From contig JAUSKD010000037.1 of assembly GCA_030647195.1 (NCBI GenBank), positions 1 through 32,465 of the forward strand: 32,465 bases of DNA, in the 5' to 3' direction. Origin of the DNA: Candidatus Peribacter sp. Its GTDB lineage: Bacteria > Patescibacteriota > Gracilibacteria > Peribacterales > Peribacteraceae. Every line of letters begins with the position of its first letter. Positions within the stretch are counted from its first letter, which is position 1. Below are positions 22,161-31,313 of the stretch, in pieces. The notes beneath the pieces are model-generated. The model was not told the DNA's origin and ran no database searches. It saw only the letters and a list, made by a program, of their open reading frames with translations. The translations under genes were made by a program, and so were the position numbers.

Positions 22161-23039
22161 ATGGATCTTCGCGAAACGCTCACTTCCGGCCGGATCCTGC
22201 TTGCCGATGGCGGCATGGGCACAGAGCTTGCTAAGGTGAAGCCCGTCAGTCTGCAGGGCAACCTGAGCGCCAACTGCACCCATCCGCTGGATGTCGCCCG
22301 CATCCATCTGCATTACATCCGTGCGGGGAGCCGCGCCATCACGACCAATACCTTCCTCCTGAATGCGCTGACGCCGGCTCAGGAGCGCCAGCAGGTCGAC
22401 CTGGACCGGATGAATAAAACGGGTGTCGCACTGGCGAGGAATATGGCCCGCTCTGATCATTTTGTGCTCGGAGGAATGGGCCCCACCGGCCGGCTCTTCG
22501 GCCTGGACGAGTGCATGACGGATGAAGCGGTTCGCGCCGCGTATCTGGCGCAGGCAAAGAGCCTGACCTCTTCCGGCGACGTGGATGGTCTGATCATCGA
22601 GACCATGACGAGCCTGCGTGAGGCGCTTCTCGCGCTTGAGGCCTGTAAGGAGGTGACGGATAAGCCCGTGATCGCTTCCATGACCTTCTATACCATGAAC
22701 AGGGACATCCGGACGATGAATGGCGAGAGCGCGGCGGAGTGCGCACAGAAACTAGCAGAGAGGGGAGCGGACGCCGTGGGAACCAACTGCAGCACCTTCC
22801 TGATGCACCAGATGGCCGAGGTGGTGGCCCGCATGCGCGCCGTTACTTCGCTGCCGATCATCGCGCAGCCCAACGCCGGCCAGCCGCATGGTGAGGAGGG
22901 GACGTACATCATGACGCCGCAGGAGTTTGCGGAGGGAGTGAAGCTTTGTATCGATGCGGGAGCGACGGTGGTGGGTGGGTGTTGCGGGGCGGGGCCGGAG
23001 TGTATTGGGGAGGTGGCGAAGCGGATCAAACACCATTAG
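22161..23039 (+). CDS. mmuM: Homocysteine S-methyltransferase (MmuM/BHMT-type)
   Basis: A 292-aa zinc enzyme that methylates homocysteine to methionine, using S-methylmethionine, betaine or (as the MetH N-domain) methyltetrahydrofolate. Zinc ligands are C210 in GTNCSTF and C274-C275 in VGGCCGAGPECI. LLADGGMGTEL (N-terminus), GGMGPTG and LIIETMTSLREALLALEACK are conserved barrel strands. The length fits a stand-alone domain; the methyl donor cannot be assigned. TAGATT lies ten bases before the ATG. Its last 60 bases recur in fragments at about 23.1 and 24.4-24.5 kb on either side of the toxin-antitoxin pair. Confidence 0.92.
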   Translation: MDLRETLTSGRILLADGGMGTELAKVKPVSLQGNLSANCTHPLDVARIHLHYIRAGSRAITTNTFLLNALTPAQERQQVDLDRMNKTGVALARNMARSDHFVLGGMGPTGRLFGLDECMTDEAVRAAYLAQAKSLTSSGDVDGLIIETMTSLREALLALEACKEVTDKPVIASMTFYTMNRDIRTMNGESAAECAQKLAERGADAVGTNCSTFLMHQMAEVVARMRAVTSLPIIAQPNAGQPHGEEGTYIMTPQEFAEGVKLCIDAGATVVGGCCGAGPECIGEVAKRIKHH

Positions 23040-24308: not shown

Positions 24309-24339
24309 TTATTTGTTGTTGACGTTAACATACGGTAAA

Positions 24340-24550
24340 TTGCCGGCCTTTGCCAGTGCATAGCGGTTCCCTTAAGCACGCCTTCGCAGGAGTTTGTAGC
24401 GGGGCGGATCAAACACCTATAGCAGCCGCCGCCTGCCCTGAGCCTGTCGAATGGGTTCCGGCTGCGGTGTATTCAGTCAGCGACTTCGCAGATGCGGATG
24501 GAGTGGGTGTTGCGGGGCGGGACCGGAGTGTATTGGGGAGGTGGGGAGGA
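24340..24550. repeat. Mosaic of REP fragments and shuffled mmuM 3'-end copies (no gene)
   Basis: This gap holds GCGGATCAAACACC plus TATAGCAGC (24404-24426), 21 of 23 matching the mmuM end and following bases (23021-23043). CCCTGAGCCTGTCGAATGGG (24436-24455) resembles a palindromic sequence I recall from intergenic repeats of other bacteria. GGTTCCGGCTGCGG is a REP half. A 40-bp stretch (24505-24544) matches mmuM 22977-23016 at 39 of 40 bases. The order of the two gene-derived pieces is reversed relative to mmuM. Confidence 0.75.
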
Positions 24551-24568
24551 GGACGTTAGGAACATCAA

Positions 24569-25033
24569 TTAGTCATTGACTAAGTATTCCAGCACCAACT
24601 TGAAAAACTTTTTTTGAAGCTCTTTCGGAACCCAAGAAATGGGCAACTTTTCAATCGCACCTTTGTTGTTAACAATTCTGTGGACGGGCGAAAAATAAAA
24701 ACCGTCTTTGGAAGCCAAAAAGATGTACGAAAATTCCCATTTTTTCGCATTCTTTTCCGCGATTTTCAGAAGCTCTTGTTGCTTGAGATTCGCGCGAAAC
24801 TTCACTTCAACAAAATATGCCTGTTTCTTATCTTCAGTAATGAGAATGAAATCAGGGCTCGTACTTATTTGATCAATCACTGCCTTTGGCAAGGTTTTGC
24901 GATATTGGGCAAGATTCGGAACAGTAGATTCATATCCAAAGCGAAGAACTGTAAATTTGTGCGTTTCACGAAACATATGCTCAAAGATTGTCTCAGCGAT
25001 TTTCCCTTTAATGAGCTCATGAACAAATTCCAT
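24569..25033 (-). CDS. PD-(D/E)XK nuclease-like protein (first of a pair)
   Basis: 154 aa from ATG 25033 (an in-frame GTG at 25036 is possible). The nuclease-core pattern is SPDFILITEDKKQAYFVEVK: an acidic D in a strand, a turn, then E-x-K. A preceding helix (ELIKGKIAETIFEHMFRETH) supplies a conserved E, as in restriction-endonuclease folds. It would cut DNA with Mg2+ if active. AT-rich relative to the 5' half of the window. Six bases downstream of the next nuclease-like gene and on the same strand. No methylase motif within it. Confidence 0.75.
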   Translation of the reverse strand: MEFVHELIKGKIAETIFEHMFRETHKFTVLRFGYESTVPNLAQYRKTLPKAVIDQISTSPDFILITEDKKQAYFVEVKFRANLKQQELLKIAEKNAKKWEFSYIFLASKDGFYFSPVHRIVNNKGAIEKLPISWVPKELQKKFFKLVLEYLVND

Positions 25034-25042
25034 CACTAAGCA

Positions 25043-25555
25043 TCATACACTTTTCTTTCTTGTTTTTCCTTGCATCGAAATTGGTCGCGATTTGGAATAG
25101 AAACTTGCATACTGAACCGCCCGAAGCAGAGGGTAGGTCTCTGGCACGGCATTATTCATGGGATCGAGATTAGAGAGCACTACTGTGATTTCTCTTATGA
25201 AATCCGGAACCAGAATAATTGTAATAGAATCAGAGAAAACAGTTTTTGCTTTAGGCTTATGGAAGCCGACAACCGCTACTTGTTCCGTGTGCTTGCGATG
25301 AACAGGAAAGACATCTCCGTAGTGTGGTTTGGCTGTTGTAAATTTTCGAAGAAAGCACTTCTTACGAATATCCCAGGAATGGGCATCGGTAGAAGTTTCG
25401 ATATGCCTCAGCGTTTCTGTTTTAGGATTGTAGGCGATCACATCCATTTCCCCCTCCCAGCCACCGAGCTTACGACGGCCAAACTTGATGTTGGTCCGGA
25501 CAAACCATCCTCTGTATGCGTACCATTCGGCGGTGAGTTGCTCGAGGAAGTTCAT
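25043..25555 (-). CDS. PD-(D/E)XK nuclease-like protein (second of a pair)
   Basis: 170 aa. MNFLEQLTAEWYAYRGWFVR is followed by GGWEGEMDVIAYNPKTETLR and HIETSTDAHSWDIRKK. The G-E-x-D ... (H)-I-E-x-S order fits the PD-(D/E)XK core with serine or threonine in place of the usual lysine. The rest is beta-rich (QVAVVGFH, SITIILVPDFIREITVVL) with a basic C-terminal tail (QGKTRKKSV). Upstream gene of the pair with 24569-25033, nine bases apart, so likely co-transcribed. The lost lysine may mean a shifted catalytic residue or loss of activity. Confidence 0.75.
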   Translation of the reverse strand: MNFLEQLTAEWYAYRGWFVRTNIKFGRRKLGGWEGEMDVIAYNPKTETLRHIETSTDAHSWDIRKKCFLRKFTTAKPHYGDVFPVHRKHTEQVAVVGFHKPKAKTVFSDSITIILVPDFIREITVVLSNLDPMNNAVPETYPLLRAVQYASFYSKSRPISMQGKTRKKSV

Positions 25556-25587
25556 ACTACTGATATGTATGGTACTCTTTGCACATC

Positions 25588-25830
25588 ATGTTTCGCATCC
25601 TAAAAGCTATCTTGAGGTTTGTGTGGAACGCACTTGAATTTATTTTTACTGGAGGCAAGTACGGTTCTTTCGTACCAAGTGATCATTCGTACGATTACTC
25701 AAAATCTCAGGAACAGCGTAGAAAGGATTTTCGAGAATTTGGCGGGCATTCATGCAAGATCTGCTCAGTGCGTATTCCAGCAAACAGGCTGTACTGCGGG
25801 GCGTGCTATCACAAGTACATCAAGAAGTAG
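25588..25830 (+). CDS. Small zinc-ribbon-like protein (80 aa)
   Basis: From ATG 25588 (MFRILKAILRFVWNALEFIF), an amphipathic or membrane-associating N-terminal helix is followed by a polar linker. The C-terminal HSCKICSVRIPANRLYCGAC motif is a four-cysteine pattern C-x2-C-x11-C-x2-C typical of zinc ribbons. TACTCT lies nine bases upstream. Divergent from the nuclease pair, 32 bases away. Function unknown. Confidence 0.72.
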   Translation: MFRILKAILRFVWNALEFIFTGGKYGSFVPSDHSYDYSKSQEQRRKDFREFGGHSCKICSVRIPANRLYCGACYHKYIKK

Positions 25831-25833
25831 GTG

Positions 25834-25839
25834 TATAAT
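25834..25839 (+). promoter_or_regulatory. -10 box of the AT-rich two-gene module
   Basis: Perfect TATAAT, seven bases before ATG 25847 and just after the stop of the zinc-ribbon gene. No strong -35 at 16-18 bp. Confidence 0.55.
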
Positions 25840-25846
25840 TGTTGAC

Positions 25847-26137
25847 ATGGAATGGGAAGAAATTGCAGCAACCTATGCGGAAGATGGAGATGTTCGTGGA
25901 GTTCTACGGAATTACATTAAGGCAAAAAAGCAGGCTCCAAAAGATGTTTTGATACGGTGTGGCGACAACGCAGTTCTCCGTAAGAGGTATGAAGATGCAA
26001 TCAAGGCATATCAATACGCACCATCCAAACCGAAGTTGAGAGCTCTGCGCAAGCATCTTATTGATACAGATAATCCAATACGCGCAGAGAAGGTATCGGC
26101 AATTCTTGTTCAGATGACATCTGATAAATATCGATGA
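25847..26137 (+). CDS. Hypothetical protein, TPR-like (96 aa), first gene of AT-rich pair
   Basis: MEWEEIAATYAEDGDVRGVL then NYIKAKKQAPKDVLIRCGDN, AVLRKRYEDAIKAYQYAPSK: paired helices with the A/Y spacing of tetratricopeptide-like repeats, so possibly a protein-interaction module. The remaining 25 residues are helical. ATG 25847 is chosen because TATAAT ends seven bases before it; the frame continues upstream over the zinc-ribbon gene as a shadow. The stop overlaps the next start (ATGA), so the two proteins are translationally coupled. No known family recognised. Confidence 0.75.
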   Translation: MEWEEIAATYAEDGDVRGVLRNYIKAKKQAPKDVLIRCGDNAVLRKRYEDAIKAYQYAPSKPKLRALRKHLIDTDNPIRAEKVSAILVQMTSDKYR

Positions 26138-27081
26138 AAATGAAGAGATTTATTACAGGTTTGCAGGCCTCCGAAACTATTGGCGCAAGATGTTCAGCTT
26201 TTCGGATGAGAACGAAAGAATTCAAAATAGCCCTGGAAGAGGTTAAGACAACGCGGAAAGATTCATATGCTTCAAATGACAAGCATGTAGTCATTTACTG
26301 TGAGAATCTATTTATTGCGCGAAAGTTACTGGCACATATTTTGGATGCATTTTCTGTCTTGCACTTTGAGGTAATAGATACAGATAGAATTGATGAGCTC
26401 ATTGATAATGCTCCTGGTCAAAATGACCATCGGTTGCTCTGGAAGTACAGCGGCAGCGGTATTCTTAGTGTCCTTCGTTTATTTCGGACAATTCATCAAA
26501 ATCCAATATTACTCTATGCATGTGCAATGTTCCGCCAAAGTTTGCTTTTGCATTCAAACTCTTACATGGAATTGGATCCGAATGAATATCCATATGAACA
26601 ACATTCCTTCAGATATAGAGATCATGTGCGTTTCGCATACGCAATTATCATCGCTTATGAAATGATCGAAGAAATGGGTTTGGCACCAAACAATCGGCAG
26701 CAATTCTGGATTACAGAAAACGGGCAAAGAAGGTGGTTGAAAAATGAGGTCGAGAAATATCTAAAGAAACTGAACAAGTTACATGTCGATGGGCGAGAAG
26801 ATTTTCTTTGGTCACTGAGAGGCAAGATAACAGCTCTTGAAAGTTTCTATTTTGATAATGGGGTAGTCAAAGAATCAGAGTTTCGGGATGTAAAACATGA
26901 AATCAGAGATTGTTATATTCCAATGTATTTGGCTGTAATTTATTTGAGACAATTGAGAAGCAAGGTTTTTCTGCATGGGAAGATGCATAGACGCGCAAAA
27001 TATTGCTCGATTCATGAAGTTTTTAATGCTCAAAGCTTAGCTAGAATGCTTCTATTGTACGTTTCACGTTTCGATTCCTAG
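26134..27081 (+). CDS. Hypothetical protein (315 aa), second gene of AT-rich pair
   Basis: Not recognised. Mostly helical with alternating basic and aromatic residues. A Rossmann-like strand DKHVVIYCENLFIARKLLAH lies near 50, then LLWKYSGSGILSVLRLFRTI, YRDHVRFAYAIIIAYEMIEE and YIPMYLAVIYLRQLRSKVFL. FRTIH gives R-x5-H counted from the preceding arginine, reminiscent of HEPN RNase motifs, but this is too weak to assign. No membrane helix is certain. Distinctly AT-rich. Starts inside the stop of the upstream gene; convergent with the type IIG enzyme 13 bases away. Location between nuclease genes and restriction-modification suggests defence, as inference. Confidence 0.8.
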   Translation: MKMKRFITGLQASETIGARCSAFRMRTKEFKIALEEVKTTRKDSYASNDKHVVIYCENLFIARKLLAHILDAFSVLHFEVIDTDRIDELIDNAPGQNDHRLLWKYSGSGILSVLRLFRTIHQNPILLYACAMFRQSLLLHSNSYMELDPNEYPYEQHSFRYRDHVRFAYAIIIAYEMIEEMGLAPNNRQQFWITENGQRRWLKNEVEKYLKKLNKLHVDGREDFLWSLRGKITALESFYFDNGVVKESEFRDVKHEIRDCYIPMYLAVIYLRQLRSKVFLHGKMHRRAKYCSIHEVFNAQSLARMLLLYVSRFDS

Positions 27082-27093
27082 TTCGATCATTTA

Positions 27094-30000
27094 TTAAATA
27101 TCTCTTTCGATAATTGATATCTCCTTCTCCGTCAGCCCATACAACTCATACACCAACTCATCGATTTTTCGGTCAATTGCCCCGATCTGGCGCTTGAGGG
27201 ATTCTTGTTCGTGGGGGGTTTTTGCAGAAGCAGTTTCTCTTTGAAGCATGAGCACCTGTTTAACGTGCGAGACAATGTGATCGTGCTTTACCTTCTGCTC
27301 AGACTTTGAAAAATCAATGCGGCGGATAGACAGTTTGGAAACTCCGTTCCAGAAGTACTCAAGAATACCTCCGCTCTTCAGCTTTCCAATACTCTTGTAG
27401 CGGAACGTGAGCAGGCGCGAATTCAATAGTCCCATTAGATAGTGGAGGTCTTCGGGTTGCTGATTATCAAATAAAACGGTGGTATCAGTCAGACCGATGA
27501 ACGCGTGATCCAGATCGAGTGCAAAGCGATTTCTCGTAGCCAAATACGGACAGAGAATCCTTGGACGATCATAAAGTTCCGCATGCAGAGGCCACGTGTA
27601 TTTCCACCATAAGCAATCTCCTCGCTTGTAGGCAGCACGCTCCTTAAGCTCAGCTTCATGAGATGAAAGATGCGCTCGAACACTGGGTGGAAGTTTTGAA
27701 AAGTCTGCTGCATTCTCGAGATAGAGTAAATATTCCCCGCGATCGCGAATGGAGTAACGCTGAATATCTGTGTTACTAGCACGACGGAACTTCATTCCTT
27801 CCGGCACTTTCCATTTTTTGATTTCTTCAATTGTTCGATTTCCAAAAACTTCATTGAGTCCAGTCTGCATTCCTTGCCCAATCACCAGAATATCTCCGAC
27901 TGGCACCCCTACGGCATCGATTTTGGCATTCAGATTCCCGGTAGCGGAATCGACGAAGTTCCACGGTGCAGCAGAGAGAGTGGGTTGGCTGATATCGTGC
28001 CTTTCGAACATACTCCGATCAGAAATACCGACGGCAAGATCCCACCTTGGTTCTTTCCCATTCCTCAGTTTGTAGACAGCAATCTTCCCCGCTTTCGCAT
28101 CAAGATCCAAGGTAACAATGCTGGTTGTGATGCCGATACCTGAGAAGACATAGAAATTTTGAAAATCGATGATCTCTTTGAGCGTGGTGTGGTGCAAAAG
28201 CCATCCACGGAGTTTGTCAGCTTTGTAAGCCTCCAAGAAAGCTCTTGAGACGATAAAACTCACGTACTTCCTCGAAATTTGTGCGGCTTTGGCCACAAAA
28301 TAGAAAAGCAGGTCGGTCTTATCGTTATAGATTGCCGGATACATGCGCTTGATCGCCTGCAAGCGCACATCACCCCTACCCCAGACATCATCGATGTTGA
28401 GGTACGGCGGATTTCCAATCACTGCATCAAACCCCGGGTTCTTCCGTTTGAAGACATCGGGAAAAGCTGACTCCCAATCGAACACGTTGATGCGTTGGCG
28501 GTCTGCATCCTCCGTATCCAGAAGTGTCTGCTGCTCGCCATCATAGAAGTCCGGCCCGATGAGGGAGTTGCCGCACTGGATATTCTTGCCCAAATCCGGC
28601 AACACGCGCTCGCGGAACATCTGCGTCTGCATGCTCTGTGCCGTTTCACCTTCCAGAACCTTAAGCAGGAGCGAAAGCTTGGTGACTTCCACGGCCTGCG
28701 GATCGATATCCACGCCAAAGATGTTATTGAGCAGAATGCGCTTGCGCTCGGCCGTCGTCAGCCGCCACTGCGGGCCTCCCTCGGAGGAGGGGAGGGCGAG
28801 GGAATACAGTTCCTTCTTCCATTTCTTCGGCTCGTGCTCCGTGTAGTACTGAATATGCCAATCGAGAAGCAGCTGATATGCGCCAATGAGAAAAGAGCCA
28901 GAACCGCAGGCGGGATCCACAATCTTCAGTTCCGCAACTTGCTTGGGGGTTTTGCCTTCGAGCAGCTTGCCCACTGTGTGCTCTACAATGTAGTCCACGA
29001 TGTATTTGGGTGTGTAGTAGACGCCTCCCGCCTTGCGCACCTCCGGCTTCTCTTCCACTTTGGCATGGTGCCCCTCGGTGAGGCGGATCACCTTGCCGAG
29101 GAATTGCTCGTAGACTTGACCGAGGATTTCTGAGGAAAAGACGGAGAAGGCGTAGGGGCTCTCCGGCGGGTAGAGGCAGGTGATGATTTCCTTCAGCTCG
29201 GCGTCATCGATGGTGAGGTGCGGCGTGACGGTATCCGGCGGCTCGCCCTGACTCTTCTCTTCTTTGAAGTGGAAGAGGCCGGAATTGTAGCGGGCATCCG
29301 CCTCGCGGAAGAGCTCAATGAGGCGTCCGTAAATTCCCGAACCATTCAGCTCCGCCTGCAGACGCCCATAGGTCTCGAGGCCCCGGTCTTCGCAGATCCG
29401 GAGGAAGATGATGCGGTCGATGGTCTGCTGGACGGCGTAGTTCATCTCCTGCTGACCCAGACTGGTATTGCGCGTGGCAATGTTCTTTGCAAGGAGCTCC
29501 CGCCAGTGTTCGATCTCCTTCAAAAACTCATCATCCACTTCTTGCGTTCCACGCCGCTTCTCGCCCGCATACTTATCGAAGGATCCGCTGAGAACGGCGT
29601 CCTTGGAGAAAATCGCCGCGATCTCATCCCAGCGTTTGGCATACTCCTCGAACGTGCAGAAGAAAATGCGTGCCGTAGAAGCCTTGTCCGCCTTGTGCGG
29701 TCTAATGCGGCAGTCATAGATCGCAAACTCCTCGAAGTCCGTGAGGATGCTGAGCGGGAGCTTGGCTGACCAAGCATAGCGACGGAGCTGGAGCGCGGGC
29801 GTCGGTTCGCCTTTGATATCCACGGAAGGCTTCTTTGCTTCCACAAAAAACTTTCGATCACGACCAATCTTCATGCAGTAATCGGGCGCCTTCATGGCAT
29901 CGCCGATACGAATAGCATCTTCATGAATCACTTCTTTGAATGCCTCCGTATGTCCTTGGGTATTGCGCACATCCCAACCAAGCGCCTCAAGCAGGGGATC

Positions 30001-30108
30001 AAGGAATTCTACGCGTAGCTGCGCCTCTTTGTATCGCACAGCTTTAAGCTCCTCGCGTTTGCGCTTGAAGTGTTCGACGAGCGTGAGGATTTGTTGAGGA
30101 GCGGGCAT
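27094..30108 (-). CDS. Type IIG restriction-modification enzyme (Eco57I-like, single polypeptide)
   Basis: 1004 aa combining endonuclease, DNA adenine methyltransferase and target recognition. The nuclease core is P75-D76 ... E90-A-K92 in APDYCMKIGRDRKFFVEAKK. A helical connector follows (about 190-360). Methylase motif I is DPACGSGSFLIGAY (398-411) and motif IV NPPY (566-569), the gamma-class N6-adenine order. The last about 300 residues (from about 700) should be the target-recognition domain. No separate specificity gene is present, as expected for this class. TATAGT lies eight bases before ATG 30108. Intact throughout. The recognition sequence cannot be read from this. Confidence 0.96.
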   Translation of the reverse strand: MPAPQQILTLVEHFKRKREELKAVRYKEAQLRVEFLDPLLEALGWDVRNTQGHTEAFKEVIHEDAIRIGDAMKAPDYCMKIGRDRKFFVEAKKPSVDIKGEPTPALQLRRYAWSAKLPLSILTDFEEFAIYDCRIRPHKADKASTARIFFCTFEEYAKRWDEIAAIFSKDAVLSGSFDKYAGEKRRGTQEVDDEFLKEIEHWRELLAKNIATRNTSLGQQEMNYAVQQTIDRIIFLRICEDRGLETYGRLQAELNGSGIYGRLIELFREADARYNSGLFHFKEEKSQGEPPDTVTPHLTIDDAELKEIITCLYPPESPYAFSVFSSEILGQVYEQFLGKVIRLTEGHHAKVEEKPEVRKAGGVYYTPKYIVDYIVEHTVGKLLEGKTPKQVAELKIVDPACGSGSFLIGAYQLLLDWHIQYYTEHEPKKWKKELYSLALPSSEGGPQWRLTTAERKRILLNNIFGVDIDPQAVEVTKLSLLLKVLEGETAQSMQTQMFRERVLPDLGKNIQCGNSLIGPDFYDGEQQTLLDTEDADRQRINVFDWESAFPDVFKRKNPGFDAVIGNPPYLNIDDVWGRGDVRLQAIKRMYPAIYNDKTDLLFYFVAKAAQISRKYVSFIVSRAFLEAYKADKLRGWLLHHTTLKEIIDFQNFYVFSGIGITTSIVTLDLDAKAGKIAVYKLRNGKEPRWDLAVGISDRSMFERHDISQPTLSAAPWNFVDSATGNLNAKIDAVGVPVGDILVIGQGMQTGLNEVFGNRTIEEIKKWKVPEGMKFRRASNTDIQRYSIRDRGEYLLYLENAADFSKLPPSVRAHLSSHEAELKERAAYKRGDCLWWKYTWPLHAELYDRPRILCPYLATRNRFALDLDHAFIGLTDTTVLFDNQQPEDLHYLMGLLNSRLLTFRYKSIGKLKSGGILEYFWNGVSKLSIRRIDFSKSEQKVKHDHIVSHVKQVLMLQRETASAKTPHEQESLKRQIGAIDRKIDELVYELYGLTEKEISIIERDI

Positions 30109-30697: not shown

Positions 30698-30883
30698 ATG
30701 ATCTTCAGTAGAAAAAATGCTGGCAAGTGGGTTGCAAGCAAAGGGAGTCGCATTATTGCGACAGACTCTAAGTTGCAGAAGCTTGTGGATAAAATGGATG
30801 TTCGAGCAGATAAGGCGAGCATTCGTTTTGATCTCGTTCCACCGCACTCTTGTTTCGCTGGATTTTGTGGAATTTCCTTATGA
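30698..30883 (+). CDS. Small protein resembling DUF5678-type domain (61 aa)
   Basis: MIFSRKNAGKWVASKGSRII then ATDSKLQKLVDKMDVRADKA: a KWVA strand, a turn, a strand with ATD, and a helix. This pattern recalls short DUF5678-like proteins, which, as I recall, often precede small aspartyl-protease genes. The downstream gene here is such a protease-like gene, overlapping by 17 bases. The start is fixed by TATCAT six bases before ATG 30698. Role unknown; a partner, antitoxin-like or substrate function would all be speculation. Confidence 0.68.
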   Translation: MIFSRKNAGKWVASKGSRIIATDSKLQKLVDKMDVRADKASIRFDLVPPHSCFAGFCGISL

Positions 30884-31313
30884 GAGATTTGAAGGCAGGT
30901 CAGGTAAGGTAGTCCATCGACCCTGTCTGCCGATTACTTTTTCGTATCGAGGCAAGAGCATCTCTATCGGAAGTGCATTGGTCGATACTGGATCGGATTT
31001 TACAATCTTGCCACTCGAAATCGCTCATGTGCTAGAAATTGAATTGGATGATAGTCAGACGATTCGAGTTGACTGTGCAGGTGGCGGTGTATTTACAGCA
31101 ATGCCATCTCAAAACAAAATCGGTTATTTAATCTCTGTCAAAGGATATCGGCCCATTGCCTGGACCGGAACAGTATTCTTCGCAGAGAATGAGCCAATCA
31201 TCCTTCTGGGCCATCATGAATGTTTAGAAAAATTCGATCTTACTTTTCAGGGTCCCGAGAAATCGCTTGGCTTGCTGCCAAGATGTAATGAGATGGTGCA
31301 AACACGCAGATAG
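30867..31313 (+). CDS. Retropepsin-like aspartic protease domain protein
   Basis: About 148 aa. ALVDTGSDFTILPLEIAHVL has the D-T-G-S catalytic motif followed by the hydrophobic psi-loop. Later VFFAENEPIILLGHHECLEK corresponds to the second conserved ILG block and FDLTFQGPEKSLGLLPR to the end of the fold, as in single-domain retropepsin-like proteins that act as dimers. GTG 30867 is chosen because FPYERF is the usual first strand; the frame is open upstream to 30717 but that part is a shadow of the preceding gene. The stop overlaps a 24-bp dyad. Confidence 0.78.
   Translation: MEFPYERFEGRSGKVVHRPCLPITFSYRGKSISIGSALVDTGSDFTILPLEIAHVLEIELDDSQTIRVDCAGGGVFTAMPSQNKIGYLISVKGYRPIAWTGTVFFAENEPIILLGHHECLEKFDLTFQGPEKSLGLLPRCNEMVQTRR

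Follow-up and report, generated by a model that had tools for sequence, protein, structure and literature searches.

A divergent member of an undescribed, predicted HEPN-like protein family, coupled to a small gene, at a restriction-system exchange site of Candidatus Peribacter

Introduction

The stretch of Candidatus Peribacter sp. DNA analysed here (contig JAUSKD010000037.1; 32,465 nucleotides, the window in what follows) carries two overlapping genes, A and B, close to restriction-modification and toxin-antitoxin genes. A sequence-only reading had recognised no family for the larger protein and had proposed, from position, composition and coupling, that the pair forms an uncharacterised anti-phage or toxin-antitoxin system. 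The locus therefore raises two questions: what kind of protein is B, and is the A-B pair the unit that matters?

Results

Layout of the locus and its probable promoter

The features on which the argument draws are these:

25847..26137, + strand: gene A (96 aa), with a weak likeness to TPR proteins; may be a regulator or antitoxin
26134..27081, + strand: gene B (315 aa), which diverges strongly within an undescribed HEPN-like family (fold predicted)
25834..25839, + strand: TATAAT, probable -10 of a leaderless transcript beginning at gene A, from the sequence read and a genome-wide spacing enrichment
26956..26976, + strand: codons of R275-x5-H281 (RSKVFLH), putative RNase motif; R and H invariant in 18 members
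26668..26673, + strand: codons of E179 and E180, two invariant residues that close helix 161-180 and may be acidic residues of the active site
25588..25830, + strand: 80-aa ORF with two CxxC motifs and a hydrophobic N-terminus; weak zinc-finger match (E 0.009)
24332..27118, no strand: variable segment holding A and B, with approximate bounds (about 24331-27119); about 0.5 kb of unrelated sequence stands in its place in sister species G054

The ATGA overlap of the two genes (25847-26137 and 26134-27081) and the TATAAT upstream of A had both been pointed out earlier, and both are as described, the hexamer ending seven bases before the ATG of A. Among 160 ATG-start ORFs of the same genome (loci L065-L084 and the window), 26 have a TANNNT ending 6-8 nt 5′ of the ATG, where more distant spacings would predict about 5; an SD-like motif is present in only 20. 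The enriched spacing and the rarity of SD-like motifs indicate that leaderless transcription is probably common in this organism, and the TATAAT sits where a leaderless gene of the host would have its -10; gene A thus probably begins its own, leaderless transcript. An SD-driven start for A was also considered, and as no clear SD is present the leaderless reading is preferred. Gene A looks coding by its GC content at the three codon positions (0.57, 0.38 and 0.34), and the reading frame of B is certain because its homologues are collinear with nearly the whole of it. The 80-aa CxxC ORF (25588-25830) ends 16 bp 5′ of A on the same strand and may or may not belong to the A-B unit. RNA families and tRNAs were searched for, and none was found.

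Gene B belongs to an undescribed family

That B fits no recognised family is borne out by the searches: its family is absent from Pfam, PADLOC and, by sequence, the PDB. B itself has no match in Pfam or NCBIfam and an insignificant one in PHROGs, and no PADLOC model matches A, B or any B homologue. Used alone as a query (tblastn or pattern scan), B had no match among plasmids, phages, viral contigs and genome contigs, and only chance-level matches in the related genomes searched (74 of the family, 380 of the phylum and 353 of the class). A first alignment (A1) was too divergent to serve pattern scanning. The bridge to the homologues was a hand-written 144-residue consensus of a family that B resembled, not itself evidence; it matched four real plasmid proteins, the best at E 1e-37. 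Two of these proteins, together with the consensus, then served as seeds of a scan that returned 17 chromosomal members. Membership was then tested with profiles built from real sequences only and with B left out. A profile of three plasmid members scored B at 63.7 bits, the best of 2,000 shuffles reaching 4.3, and a profile of the 17 chromosomal members gave B 93.9 bits, compared with 9.9 for the best of 5,000 shuffles. The alignment of B with its homologues is collinear over nearly the full length, the start included ('KRFITGLQ' in B, 'KRFKTGLR' in L048). B is intact, and its identity to family members is 16-29%. Judged from the sequence, B is a member of this undescribed family that is full-length but very divergent; its terminal branch is very long, so its position in the tree is unsure. 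The queries used found no B-family member in viral contigs and phages.

A conserved motif and a predicted HEPN-like fold

Across 18 aligned members the invariant residues include E179, E180, W226, R229, G230, R258, D259, R275, H281, N298 and Q300, and the residue after R275 is always S or N. The HEPN ribonuclease motif has the form Rx4-6H, the motif ending a helix (PMC3710099), and R275-x5-H281 with its polar residue after the R fits this form in 18 of 18 members. Motifs of the R-x4-6-H type are common by chance in a single sequence (5 in B, 3.2 expected), so the weight rests on conservation and position.

An AlphaFold2 model of B, built with an 18-row alignment, reached pLDDT 76.5 and pTM 0.81; a model built without alignment (pLDDT 35) was not used. 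In the predicted structure R275 ends helix 264-278 and H281 lies in the loop preceding helix 293-310, which is the site described for HEPN, at the end of helix 3 and in the loop before helix 4. When the model was compared with solved structures by VIA-align, 1ufb ranked first (Z 8.0, 107 of 127 residues). This protein contains RYPDAH and is a sequence relative of 1o3u, which is listed as HEPN-T (PMC3710099). Csm6 (Z 5.8), LsoA (5.4), a second Csm6 (4.0), RnlA (3.9) and MtlR (3.3) also matched, and six of the fifteen best fold matches are HEPN chains. The model sets the N-terminal 93 residues apart as a small alpha/beta domain of their own, for which the only matches are weak ones of TBP-like or LANA-like type. 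A Foldseek search with the model gave no significant match (E above 0.2), and a BFVD fold search nothing significant. No sequence or profile link joins the B family to HEPN proteins in the PDB, RnlA and LsoA included, and no HEPN model of Pfam or PADLOC matches any of the 18 members, which is not decisive in so divergent a superfamily. Because Foldseek was not significant and a Z of 8 is modest for a helical fold, we regard the HEPN assignment as likely and not proven.

Gene A and the fate of the pair

The description of A as TPR-like survives in a weak form, as its match to TPR_2 (E 0.007) is below the cut-off. Its best Pfam match, DUF6832 (E 0.003), is also below the cut-off, and the fact that DUF6832 was not found in 145 class genomes nor in controls is uninformative. 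A hand-written TPR consensus matches A with E 4e-9; this is a match to that one sequence and is not evidence, and the consensus matched nothing in 58 relatives' genomes, viral contigs or plasmids. No A homologue stands beside the B family in 21 loci, and no convincing one was found in 74 family and 251 class genomes. The A-B module is therefore, so far, unique to this genome. A conserved two-gene module is not supported, since A is absent beside all B homologues examined and several of these are solo. The sequence-only reading had staked itself on recurrence of the pair and on a context other than housekeeping: the pairing is not found elsewhere, while B as a defence or toxin gene still stands. 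Operons that join a HEPN gene to a TPR or Sel1-repeat gene are known, as in LA2681 and AbiU2 (PMC3710099), which makes a controlling role for A plausible; that A is a regulator or antitoxin is a guess.

An exchange site for restriction systems

We compared the window with four sister species of the genus, in all four of which the flanks are partly kept. The site is bounded by a homocysteine S-methyltransferase gene and a XerC-like integrase gene. Between them G053 has a DNA methylase and an MvaI/BcnI-type endonuclease, G051 a cytosine methylase and an XcyI-type endonuclease, and G054 a type IIG enzyme resembling that of the window. With sister species carrying such different restriction systems, the site is a hotspot of restriction and defence exchange, and A-B is part of its variable cargo. 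By profile, no second member of the B family occurs in 353 class and 287 phylum genomes, which fits a horizontal acquisition of B.

Of the neighbours reported earlier, profile matches confirm the type IIG restriction-modification enzyme beside the pair and the HTH/SocA-Panacea gene of the nearby toxin-antitoxin pair. Of the two PD-(D/E)XK nucleases proposed to the left, 24569-25036 finds weak backing in a profile (TnsA-like N, E 2e-4) and 25043-25555 finds none. A and B are AT-rich (GC 0.43 and 0.38), but the claim that they are more so than their flanks fails on the left, where the neighbours are equally AT-rich (0.39-0.45); the AT-rich block is thus wider than the pair, about 24.5-27.1 kb.

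Several further observations concern this region. The type IIG genes of the window (27094-30108) and of G054 (L027 3271-6192) share about 83% DNA identity in the N-terminal part and at the extreme C-terminus, with no DNA match in the stretch between these conserved ends, a mosaic which suggests that the specificity region was exchanged. Next to the type IIG gene, 30717-31313 encodes a retroviral-type aspartyl protease-like protein (PADLOC candidate PDC-M52B, E 2e-8). Left of the module, a short sequence of the CCTGAGCCTGTCGAA type (24430-24455) has many near-copies across the genomes of the genus and is an intergenic repeat. The window has a second copy of the S-methyltransferase gene's 3′ end (51 bp, 92%; 22975-23025 and 24503-24553), and so does G053 (L028 5849-5889 and 7170-7210); in both genomes the SocA-like toxin-antitoxin pair lies between the gene and the copy. 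Going by these repeats, this looks like an attachment-site duplication around that pair. At the other boundary, two sister species repeat the 3′ end of their XerC-like integrase gene at a distance of 1.0-1.4 kb, with about 75% identity and with cargo between the copies (L029 6045-6091 and 7454-7500; L027 7602-7661 and 8611-8670); the integrase gene's own 3′ end may be the point of entry for cargo.

Neighbourhoods of the B homologues

Some relatives of B in Alphaproteobacteria and Bacteroidota lie beside defence genes. Their neighbours include GajA/GajB of Gabija (L051), a Tmn ATPase and PDC-S21 (L055), HmaC with a Swt1-type HEPN domain (L048), a DUF4209/PDC-S39 gene with a 4-bp overlap (L049) and a ThiF/E1-like gene (L062); the Roseovarius homologue (L044) is followed by an MNT gene with an 8-bp overlap, PrlF/YhaV being also near. 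Several other homologues are solo genes away from defence genes, some of them apparently beside housekeeping genes, a context judged by reading the neighbours and not by profile search. The defence association of the family is qualitative. On plasmid pB of Ensifer adhaerens (L045 3987-6486), the B homologue follows closely on a capP-type metallopeptidase gene (E 2e-61) that has a short overlapping ORF in front of it; a CapH/CapP-like switch over a HEPN effector in Ensifer is a testable idea.

Discussion

The reading that we favour, with a little more than even confidence, is that B is an RNase toxin or abortive-infection effector of the HEPN type that was acquired horizontally. B would be an endoribonuclease that works without metal and, once released, stops growth or aborts infection. 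Its C-terminal helical domain would carry the catalytic R-x5-H, and its N-terminal alpha/beta domain may bind nucleic acid or the trigger. It would have arrived as cargo of a site that swaps restriction-modification systems among sister species. A, which shares the predicted leaderless transcript with B and is coupled to it in translation, would most likely keep B inactive or sense the trigger. We infer RNase activity, toxicity and an anti-phage role for B, and likewise any role of A. The original anti-phage or toxin-antitoxin proposal is thus supported as regards B, through its HEPN-like motif and predicted fold, the exchange site and the defence neighbours of several homologues, but not as regards a conserved pair.

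A classical toxin-antitoxin pair, with B as HEPN toxin and A as its dedicated protein antitoxin, would make the locus an addiction module of the island that is not triggered by phage. The ATGA coupling with the small gene first, the precedent of HEPN operons with TPR or Sel1-repeat genes (LA2681, AbiU2; PMC3710099) and the MNT-type antitoxin candidate coupled to the Roseovarius homologue all speak for such a pair, but no A stands beside any B homologue examined and many of these are solo, so that the family needs no adjacent coded antitoxin; we think this possible and rather unlikely. Patchy distribution and defence neighbours weigh against the view that B is a non-toxic RNA-binding or regulatory protein of HEPN fold, like MtlR, that is in the island by chance, and so does the invariance of R and H in 18 of 18 aligned members, since non-catalytic HEPN domains tend towards motif loss (PMC3710099). 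That view can point to MtlR among the weak fold matches (Z 3.3) and to the several solo homologues apparently next to housekeeping genes, and we hold it to be quite improbable.

It could also be that B is not a HEPN protein at all, the motif and the helical likeness being coincidental and the activity of another kind. This would accord with the lack of a sequence-profile link between the family and HEPN, and for helical bundles a Z under 13 can reflect a mere common arrangement; the motif is nevertheless conserved and well placed, and six HEPN chains stand among the fifteen best fold matches, so we consider a coincidence improbable. Returning to the HEPN effector that we favour, the family might be a modular one, a single abortive-infection effector with exchangeable control partners, though we would put this forward only tentatively. 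The partners, as doubtful a proposal, would be the MNT enzyme in Roseovarius, the CapP-type peptidase switch in Ensifer, the DUF4209 protein in a proteobacterial MAG and the TPR-like A here. If true, a HEPN effector with exchangeable partners would be an abortive-infection effector not yet described.

Comparison with known systems

In layout B may be likened to RnlA (RNase LS) and LsoA, anti-phage proteins with a C-terminal HEPN endoribonuclease and a differing N-terminal domain. LsoA (Z 5.4) and RnlA (Z 3.9) are fold matches of the B model with no detectable sequence match; the B locus is without an RnlB-type partner, and any homology in motif spacing or N-terminal domain would be conjectural. 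HEPN-MNT systems (HepT-MntA) also couple a HEPN protein to a small gene, as B is coupled to A, but a typical HepT is only about a third as large as B, and in the window neither A nor another neighbour matches MNT, which occurs at one homologous locus only (Roseovarius). HEPN families of the LA2681/AbiU2 type (PMC3710099) resemble the locus in that the HEPN protein is coupled to a helical-repeat protein; B, however, matches no Pfam model, these families included, and A is marginal as a TPR protein. The HEPN-like family of B is described by none of the libraries searched, and its partner in this genome is unusual. Because neither Pfam nor PADLOC has a model for the family, annotation pipelines and defence finders miss it. 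In a bacterium with a 1.35-Mb genome, a gene of the B type is cargo of a restriction-system hotspot, and the shared R/H motif offers a direct two-residue mutation test of RNase toxicity.
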